Shown here piece after piece: positions 3,121-4,918 of a DNA stretch of 54,714 nt. The stretch is taken from the NCBI GenBank assembly GCA_028711445.1, contig JAQTSD010000005.1:1-54714 (forward strand), given 5' to 3'. Position 1 is the stretch's first letter; every line of letters starts with the position of its first letter. The notes below the pieces were generated by a model that was not told where the DNA came from, did not search any database, and saw nothing but the letters and a program-made list of their open reading frames with translations. The DNA comes from Candidatus Peribacteraceae bacterium (GTDB lineage Bacteria > Patescibacteriota > Gracilibacteria > Peribacterales > Peribacteraceae). A program made the position numbers and the translations under genes.

Positions 3121-4737
3121 TCACGGGTTTCCTTTGCGTTCGATACACACCTCATGCAGACGCTTGAGGGCAGGCAACGCTTTATCGCTATCCACGGCAA
3201 AGGTCATAACGAGCTCATTGAATCCCTGCGAGATGAGGCGGATATCCGCATCCACGTTATGGAGTGCCAAAACGGCGCTCAGAGCCGGACCGGATTGCTT
3301 CATGTTGTTTCCGAGGCAGTACAGCAGTGTCTTGTCGCGAATGATCGAGAGCGCGAGGGTACGGTCCGGCCCGAAATGTTCCTGAAGGAACGTTTGAAAT
3401 TCCTCGGTTTCTTGCGGTTTGAGGTCCCCGTTCGTGAATGTGAAGGAGACAGTGACTTCGCTCGTCGTCACCTGATCGATCGAGATACCCCGTTCTGCGA
3501 ACCACGCGGTCACAGTACTGAGGAATCCAGCTTGTCCGAACATTTTCGTCGAGCGCATCTCCAGTGCGACGGGCATCTTGCGTGCAGCGACGATTTCGAT
3601 GCCGTTGGATTGAGGGTCGAAGCGGCGGATGTGGGTGATGCGGTTCAACGCAGGATCTTCCGCAGGATTGAACACCAGCGTATCGATATCATCTTCCGCG
3701 AGCATGGAGAGCGCTTGCGGATGGATGGCTCCGCCGTCGGCTCCGCGCGTATTGCCGAAGGCTTCCATGGCGAGTGCGAATGTCATGTCATGGATGACGG
3801 TCGCGCGGTCGCGGCCCACGTGCTTAGGATCGGCACTCATGATCGGATACTGTTTCTCGACGAGGTATGCGACCCATTCCCCTGCATCTTTTGCGGCTTG
3901 CGCGAGAAGTGCCCCCGTCTTGTCACTGTAGCCGCGCTGGCTGCCGAGGATCGGCAGATACCCCCCGGCGATGAGCACGGAGTGAGCAGGCAGCAATCTG
4001 GCGATGCGGTTCTGCATCGCACGCCGCACCGTCTCGATGGCGAGTGCCGTCTGGCGCTCGTTTGCGATGATGTTTTCAGGTTTTGAACCGAAAACCCGCT
4101 CGCCGATCCCTCCGGTATCGACCGCATGGGCCGGAAGGTTCTTCAATGTGAAGTATGTGGCATAGATGGCTTGTGCGAGGGCTTCGCCGACACCGGTGAT
4201 GGATACACACTCGCGGGTGTCTTTCAGGATCCAGTCTGCACCAAGCTGCGCGATCTTGTTCCCGTCGCATGCGTCGATGCGTTGCAAAAATACATCGAGG
4301 ATACGATCGATGGCGGCATGGAGACCGCGGCACGCTTCCGGAGCATCGGGCATCGGATCATCTTGCACCTGAGCGGCGACGATCTCTTTCGTAAAGGTGC
4401 GGATCCGCTCAAGTATGTCGTGTGCGGACTTGCGGTCTCCCGCTTGCAGCCGTTTCGCAAGTTCGATCAAGTGTGAGGTGGTATTGAAGCCGTGTTTCAT
4501 GCGGCCTGTGCTGTCGTGGTCGACGACGTTTCCGTGTGCATAGTGATCAAAGCGCTCGGAGGAACTACGCAGGGCCGAGACGGCGATGATTTGTTTCTTT
4601 CCCTCCGCAGCCCTGCGTGCGACAATTGCGGTATTGCTCCGTAGGTCCGCGGCATTCTCGCCGCCGATTTTCGCAACGTAGGTTTCCGCGTTCCGGAGCA
4701 CACGTTGTCCTGAGCTTAAAGGTGGAAGGATTTCCAT
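3121..4737 (-). CDS. Aspartokinase with C-terminal ACT domains
   Basis: A 538-aa protein of the aspartate kinase family, which phosphorylates L-aspartate as the entry to lysine, threonine and methionine synthesis. The N-terminus carries YVAKIGGENAAD, a diverged form of the usual KFGG-S kinase motif, followed by the conserved AVSAL segment. The kinase body includes GGIGERVFGS and AGGYLPILGS. From about residue 390, paired ACT domains follow (for example FGQAGFLSTVTAWFAERGISIDQV), the usual site of feedback inhibition. Expression appears controlled by the attenuator directly upstream. No other aspartate-pathway gene is in the window. The pyrimidine-rich CTCCCCTCCCC precedes the ATG, with no Shine-Dalgarno. 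Confidence 0.85.
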   Translation of the reverse strand: MEILPPLSSGQRVLRNAETYVAKIGGENAADLRSNTAIVARRAAEGKKQIIAVSALRSSSERFDHYAHGNVVDHDSTGRMKHGFNTTSHLIELAKRLQAGDRKSAHDILERIRTFTKEIVAAQVQDDPMPDAPEACRGLHAAIDRILDVFLQRIDACDGNKIAQLGADWILKDTRECVSITGVGEALAQAIYATYFTLKNLPAHAVDTGGIGERVFGSKPENIIANERQTALAIETVRRAMQNRIARLLPAHSVLIAGGYLPILGSQRGYSDKTGALLAQAAKDAGEWVAYLVEKQYPIMSADPKHVGRDRATVIHDMTFALAMEAFGNTRGADGGAIHPQALSMLAEDDIDTLVFNPAEDPALNRITHIRRFDPQSNGIEIVAARKMPVALEMRSTKMFGQAGFLSTVTAWFAERGISIDQVTTSEVTVSFTFTNGDLKPQETEEFQTFLQEHFGPDRTLALSIIRDKTLLYCLGNNMKQSGPALSAVLALHNVDADIRLISQGFNELVMTFAVDSDKALPALKRLHEVCIERKGNP

Positions 4738-4761: not shown

Positions 4762-4844
4762 AAAAAACCCCTTTCTGTGCGGGAAGGGGCTGGAAACCTA
4801 GGAAGAATGTAGGTCCTAGCAGCCGTCCTTCCCGGAGAGGGAGG
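4762..4844 (-). promoter_or_regulatory. Transcription attenuator of the aspartokinase gene
   Basis: Read on the minus strand, three mutually exclusive structures are visible. The terminator pairs CCCCTT (4789-4784) with AAGGGG (4773-4768) and is followed by six T. The antiterminator pairs CGGGAAGG+GGCTG (4834-4820, AC bulged) with CAGCC+CCTTCCCG (4792-4780): 13 bp, overlapping the terminator's 5' arm. A pause-type hairpin pairs CCTCCC (4844-4839) with GGG(A)AGG (4833-4827). A ribosome finishing the leader would cover the antiterminator's 5' strand and allow termination; one stalled at Thr/Met/Lys codons would leave it free. Confidence 0.85.
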
Positions 4845-4881
4845 TCTTCGTCATCTTCTTCATGGTGACGAAACGCTGCAT
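4816..4881 (-). CDS. Aspartokinase attenuator leader peptide (Thr/Met/Lys-rich)
   Basis: A 21-codon open frame, ATG to TAG, between promoter and terminator. Residues 6-13 read Thr-Met-Lys-Lys-Met-Thr-Lys-Thr, all end products of the aspartate pathway, the kind of bias seen in the E. coli thr leader. The ATG is 9 nt after the -10 hexamer, so the transcript would begin at most a few bases before it; no Shine-Dalgarno is possible. The start context CCGTCATGCAGC is identical to that of the leucine leader at 21394. Confidence 0.8.
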   Translation of the reverse strand: MQRFVTMKKMTKTSLSGKDGC

Positions 4882-4890
4882 GACGGAAAC

Positions 4891-4918
4891 ATCCTAGGAG
4901 AATGGAGGTGGTTGTCAA
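4891..4918 (-). promoter_or_regulatory. Promoter of the aspartokinase leader
   Basis: Minus-strand TTGACA (4918-4913), 16-bp spacer, TAGGAT (4896-4891). The -35 is a perfect consensus and the -10 matches at four of six positions. The predicted start lies at about 4884-4881, at the leader ATG. Confidence 0.75.

Follow-up and report, generated by a model that had tools for sequence, protein, structure and literature searches.

Ribosome-mediated attenuation is a textbook mechanism. Among described systems, thrL of enteric thrABC (RF00506, Thr_leader) is close to the locus reported here: the two have in common a leader peptide rich in cognate codons, alternative antiterminator and terminator structures and a target of the aspartokinase (AK) family. 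Unlike thrL, which reads Thr and Ile, the leader in the window (the whole 54.7-kb stretch of DNA analysed) encodes Lys, Thr and Met and precedes a lone, divergent AK gene; it also carries no recognisable Shine-Dalgarno sequence, and its ORF would be near-leaderless. RF00506 gave no match to this leader at the gathering score or at E-values up to 10.

Leaderless leader ORFs have been described in the trpL attenuator of Sinorhizobium meliloti (PMC7298713) and in the Cys-rich upstream ORFs of mycobacteria (PMC4633059). As in these two cases, the start codon would lie at or near the 5′ end of the transcript and cognate codons precede a biosynthetic gene, but the amino acids and phyla are different and leaderlessness is predicted here from the −10 spacing. 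Outside the Proteobacteria, the general mechanism is shared by leader-peptide attenuators of actinobacteria and bacilli (PMC1262725, PMC2965389). In the actinobacterial survey, genes for threonine, lysine or methionine yielded no RNA structures, and in the searched parts of the two surveys Patescibacteria are not treated. The lysine riboswitch (RF00168) of lysC likewise controls AK in response to lysine, Shewanella lysC being an example of control of the lysine riboswitch/T-box type (PMC2659441). It is, however, a small-molecule aptamer, whereas the control proposed here is ribosome-based, and neither RF00168 nor the T-box models of Rfam matched the window leader. No description of leader-peptide attenuation in Patescibacteria was found in the open-access literature searched, in which its occurrence in this group, the leaderless leader ORFs, the Lys/Thr/Met code and a scaffold shared by several genes all appear to be undescribed.

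The leader of the aspartokinase-like gene

Judged from its sequence, the region upstream of the AK-like gene is with high probability a ribosome-mediated transcription attenuator that reads codons for Lys, for Thr and probably for Met. Its parts, all on the minus strand, are the following.

4918–4913, minus strand: −35 hexamer TTGACA (direct reading and consensus scan)
4896–4891, minus strand: −10 hexamer TAGGAT, 16 nt from the −35 and with its end 9 nt upstream of the leader ATG (reading and consensus scan)
4881–4816, minus strand: leader ORF of 21 codons, MQRFVTMKKMTKTSLSGKDGC, ATG at 4881 and stop codon TAG at 4818–4816 (reading; orthologous leaders)
4866–4843, minus strand: control codons 6–13, ACC ATG AAG AAG ATG ACG AAG ACC, or TMKKMTKT (ribosome scan)
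4844–4839, minus strand: segment 1, CCTCCC, a possible partner of segment 2 or of the terminator 3′ arm/U tract
4834–4820, minus strand: segment 2, antiterminator 5′ arm CGGGAAGG-AC-GGCTG, within the leader ORF (cognate pairing beats all arm swaps)
4819–4798, minus strand: small hairpin CTAGGA...TCCTAG, starting at the leader stop codon and lying inside the antiterminator loop (MFE fold); kept in some relatives, not in all
4792–4780, minus strand: segment 3, antiterminator 3′ arm CAGCCCCTTCCCG, including the terminator 5′ arm (fold, swap tests)
4789–4762, minus strand: intrinsic terminator, CCCCTT-loop-AAGGGG followed by TTTTTT (reading, fold)
4737–3121, minus strand: AK-like gene, 538 aa, AA_kinase and two ACT domains, presumed target of the attenuator (Pfam, PDB profile)

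Most of this layout had been proposed in an initial annotation. The promoter TTGACA-16-TAGGAT was read directly and its −10 was also picked by the consensus scan; the 21-codon leader with Thr-Met-Lys-Lys-Met-Thr-Lys-Thr at codons 6–13 is correct by direct reading; and the 13-bp antiterminator overlapping the leader end was recovered as 4834–4820 paired with 4792–4780. The intrinsic terminator with six T residues before the AK ATG is also present, with its stem corrected to 6–7 bp and its loop to 10 nt; with the leader masked, it folds at −10.5 kcal/mol. The ATG at 4737 lies 24 nt past the T tract, and no promoter-like sequence is evident in these 24 nt.

Since the consensus scan meets promoter-like sites often in this sequence (3, with 3.8 expected), the promoter call rests on conservation: TTGAC occurs at the matching place in 14 of the 15 family leaders, when one more base change in the −35 is allowed. 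The end of the −10 is separated from the leader ATG by about 6–11 nt in family leaders. With a start some 7 nt past the −10, this spacing leaves a 5′ UTR of 0–4 nt; the transcript therefore probably begins at the leader ATG or a few bases away from it, and the leader ORF would be leaderless or near-leaderless.

In the proposed mechanism, when charged Lys-, Thr- and probably Met-tRNA are ample, the ribosome would cross codons 6–13 to the stop codon and cover segment 2 (4834–4820), segments 3 and 4 would form the terminator, and transcription would stop short of the AK-like gene. If one of these tRNAs runs short, the ribosome would stall at a control codon, upstream of segment 2. The latter, left free, would pair with segment 3, the outer helix would also trap the terminator 3′ arm, and formation of the antiterminator would allow readthrough into the AK-like gene. 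Start site, stalling, termination and the benefit of making the kinase are what we infer in this scheme.

The 538-aa product matches PF00696 (AA_kinase) and PF22468 (ACT_9) above the Pfam cut-offs, as well as PDB aspartokinases in a profile search. Residues K23, S54, T86/87, E185, R268, S271 and D272 align with canonical AKs, in whose structures they have catalytic roles. The protein differs from canonical AKs by a GGTS to GGEN change and two insertions, and missed the NCBIfam AK cut-off (best 102 bits, cut-off 455). By sequence it is divergent from curated aspartokinases and probably an active amino-acid kinase. An AlphaFold model computed from a two-sequence alignment reached a pLDDT of 50 and was discarded.

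Lys, Thr and Met had initially been taken as the end products of the pathway. This argument finds no support in the host genome: hom (PF00742), asd (PF02774), dapA (PF00701) and thrC (TIGR00260) were not detected there (G000; 1.25 Mb, 99.7% complete), with searches that were positive in 14 of 14 control genomes. Among the family relatives tested, hom was found only in G012, on the same contig as AK, a PF02774 protein in G013, G016 and G026, and dapA in G013 and G038. The kinase looks orphaned in its host. Because these four genes went undetected there, simple end-product feedback is unsupported, and the AK-like enzyme is not simply the first step of a complete Lys/Thr/Met pathway. Its product may enter a salvage or exchange reaction, or the enzyme may be a relict on whose control selection still acts. 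Regulation by the supply of Lys and Thr holds even though the end-product argument, as stated, does not.

Conservation and alternative folding

Among 74 genomes of the family, 15 AK orthologs were found, with AK identities as low as 33%. All 15 have a Lys/Thr(/Met) leader, placed before AK itself in 14 and before a dapA-AK pair in one (G013); examples are MQLVSSMKKTTKTSRSGKDGC, MQLLGHTKTMKTKKTSSYRKGDC, MIHCCYTTTKTTKTTSSGGRLSV, MRHFATKTKQMKKTPLMGR and MQHFASTKKTMKTSLIGKDSC. A terminator separates leader and AK in 13 of the 15. None was recognised behind the G013 leader, nor in G103 (L063, 3700–3900), in which a hairpin CCCTCCA/TGGAGGG covers the AK ATG instead. This start-codon hairpin is alternative to the antiterminator and flips past the control codons, an apparent change from transcriptional to translational attenuation.

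Codon content was assessed over 19 related leaders, whose pooled counts come from related sequences and are not independent, so they give no strict probabilities. Lys was observed 78 times (19 expected, a fourfold excess), Thr 57 times (24.6 expected) and Met 21 times (8.6 expected, 2.4 times). Lys and Thr are present in every leader tested; Met, probably sensed as well, shows a weaker excess. Leader Lys codons are 75 AAG and 3 AAA, those in the long ORFs of the window 88 AAG and 54 AAA. When both strands of the window were searched for short ORFs that have 6 or more Lys/Thr within 8 residues and lie ahead of a terminator, only the AK leader was retrieved.

The leader folds with a z-score of −2.2 against shuffles, and when the leader end was shuffled 1000 times, a single shuffle paired with the terminator arm as well as the native sequence does. 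RNAalifold returned no consensus pairs on a MAFFT alignment of 13 leaders, because the arms are offset by a base between leaders, and arm-swap tests were used in its place. Cognate antiterminator arms paired at a mean of −31.2 kcal/mol, compared with −24.3 (sd 1.0) for arms permuted among species, and none of 50,000 permutations was as good as the cognate set. Restricting the set to a single leader for each arm type did not change the outcome. Arms were picked by hand for the first arm-pairing test and chosen mechanically for the repeat swap.

Switching was examined by a ribosome scan based on equilibrium folding, in which the ribosome was assumed to cover 13 nt counted from the codon in the A site. 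In the window, terminator probability was 0.00–0.01 with codons 4–13 in the A site and 0.86–1.00 from codon 14, the change occurring between codon 13 (0.01) and codon 14 (0.86). Over the leaders scanned it was about 0 at the control codons and about 1 past them, and in 12 of 15 leaders the switch to the terminator came no more than about one codon away from the last control codon. The flip was predicted earlier than the last control codons in G038, G053 and G008, and in the distant G080 and G089 equilibrium folding always favoured the terminator. As modelled, a ribosome at the control codons leaves the antiterminator free and a ribosome at the stop codon masks it. In the MFE fold, the ACCTCC codons also hold the terminator 3′ arm, adding an outer helix to the antiterminator. 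A protector (1:2) hairpin is possible in all leaders and in none more stable than shuffles (window probability 0.52). Parts, conservation, arm covariation and switching geometry are thus observed at the computational level.

Leaders before other genes

A second predicted attenuator, with Leu control codons, lies upstream of leuA in the window.

Within 21431–21242, minus strand: promoter TTGACA-16-TACAAT-9-ATG, with the spacing of the AK leader
21394–21299, minus strand: Leu leader MQQRGLLLLGLSFSALSLVEGLLTAEGMLRA, ending at a stop codon, before leuA
About 21277–21242, minus strand: terminator, preceding leuA
20980–19403, minus strand: leuA (2-isopropylmalate synthase), presumed target of the Leu attenuator

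Poly-Leu leaders are found at 11 of 14 leuA-like loci of the family, for example MQQKGLLLGLLLLLLTEGGRLRA in G037. Between the Leu terminator and leuA of the window is a 72-aa ORF (about 21220–21002, minus strand) containing EHAFCHEAGIHQ, which resembles a fragment of the LeuA C-terminal motif.

The 74 genomes of the family were searched with a covariance model built from AK leaders (R1), which gives only rough E-values when leaders are paralogous. The model detected poly-Thr leaders before threonyl-tRNA synthetase genes (equivalog TIGR00418), at about half of the thrS loci examined; thrS of the host genome has none. A second R1 match in the host genome (C21) was rejected as chance. The other leaders and their genes are listed by locus.

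L135, L134, L138, L139, L130, L141, L133, L145–L147, L156, L158, L164: poly-Thr leaders before thrS, for example MSQRATTTTTTTTSR, ending at a stop codon
L131, L132, L136, L137, L140: poly-Met leaders (MMMSMMM) before an uncharacterised family of 309–367 aa
L117, L123 (formyltransferase-like), L124, L125 (another family), L120 (AK-like, KIGGS): Lys leaders (KQKKAKKTS) on the shared scaffold
L114, L115, L118, L119, L121, L113: Lys/Thr/Met leader scaffold before small proteins of 73–134 aa

One member of the poly-Met-led family has a sub-threshold match to SAM_HAT_C, the C-terminal domain of SAM hydroxide adenosyltransferase, and in a profile search of the PDB a SAM hydrolase appeared only at E = 0.53; if the SAM_HAT_C match is real, the protein would release methionine. 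The small proteins behind Lys/Thr/Met leaders had no Pfam match, and no AK of this type was found by the AK search in their genomes. The common scaffold consists of MQxF...control codons...TSxxGKxxC, GGGAAGG/CCTTCCC arms and a near-leaderless start.

Some other families of the class use TGA as a sense codon, a trait consistent with a probable placement in GTDB class Gracilibacteria. In other families of the class, monofunctional AKs (G080, G089, G221, G225, G227, G238 and others) are preceded by a Lys leader and a terminator. Thr/Ile leaders before AK genes, the arrangement of Escherichia coli thrL, occur in G274 (L175, MFMSRLVTITTTTITTITS) and G060 (L178, MSTIQSTTTIITTTTTGSLMR), both ending at a stop codon; the G060 AK is a bifunctional AK/homoserine dehydrogenase above the NCBIfam cut-off. 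KIGGAN-type AKs of the class (e.g. G273, G260, G263, G262, G246) are mostly without leaders in an automatic scan. Control codons therefore fit the gene, Thr/Ile with thrA, Lys with monofunctional AK, Thr with thrS and Leu with leuA, a pattern with no easy explanation other than amino-acid sensing.

Alternative explanations and biological meaning

That chance has put an AAG/ACC-rich short ORF behind a promoter-like site and ahead of an ordinary terminator, and that nothing is regulated there, is extremely improbable. Promoter-like sites are indeed not above expectation in this sequence, and AAG/ACC-rich stretches and pyrimidine/purine arms easily arise at high GC, as the protector test illustrates. 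It is mainly conservation that refutes chance, layout and codons being kept in 15 of 15 family orthologs while the arms change jointly; in addition, the window holds a single such site, and codon identity tracks gene identity over five gene types. Nor do we give more than minimal credence to a ligand-binding riboswitch or T-box controlling the terminator, with the ORF incidental. Elsewhere among bacteria, both classes regulate genes for AK and for aminoacyl-tRNA synthetases, but no Rfam model matched near the locus at gathering score, and the matches up to E = 10 were unrelated, none being a riboswitch, a T-box or an amino-acid leader family. The codons are conserved, and no conserved aptamer-like core was seen outside the ORF.

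In favour of a functional small peptide made along with the kinase, several AK leaders of the family keep at their C terminus GKDGC or a version differing by one letter. This stretch, however, doubles as the antiterminator arm, and where the arm changes the peptide varies freely (GKDGC, RKGDC, GELRA, SSGGRLSV) while the Lys/Thr content stays, making a peptide function very improbable. Translational attenuation, in which leader translation would expose or hide the AK start codon, is very improbable for the window: G103 seems to offer just such a case, having no terminator and a hairpin over the AK ATG that flips past the control codons, but in the window and 12 relatives a T tract follows the alternate hairpin, and the AK start of the window lies 24 nt beyond it. 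Conservation, covariation of the arms, the geometry of switching and independent cases within the clade strongly support transcription attenuation, as initially proposed. The initial annotation had named, among the observations that would count against it, related genomes without the codon bias or the alternative stems; none such occurred.

Whether this Peregrinibacteria-like lineage has copied one scaffold before many genes, swapping the sensor codons, and so acquired an RNA-only amino-acid-starvation regulon for acquisition or salvage instead of biosynthesis is a question on which we stand evenly divided. This reading covers Lys/Thr/Met leaders with an orphan AK and small proteins, poly-Thr with thrS, poly-Met with the SAM-hydrolase-like family (a weak assignment) and Lys with the formyltransferase-like family. 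If true, the regulon would belong to symbionts that have lost most amino-acid synthesis. In Candidatus Peribacter, the inferred capacity for amino-acid synthesis is limited to Ala, Ser and Gly (PMC4736985). Patescibacteria largely import amino acids, and a re-codable attenuator family is one way in which near-auxotrophic, ultra-small cells could sense shortage. The family also predicts which uncharacterised genes would respond to which amino acid, so that Thr/Ile, Lys, Thr, Leu and Met codons may serve as functional clues for proteins that sequence similarity leaves unnamed.
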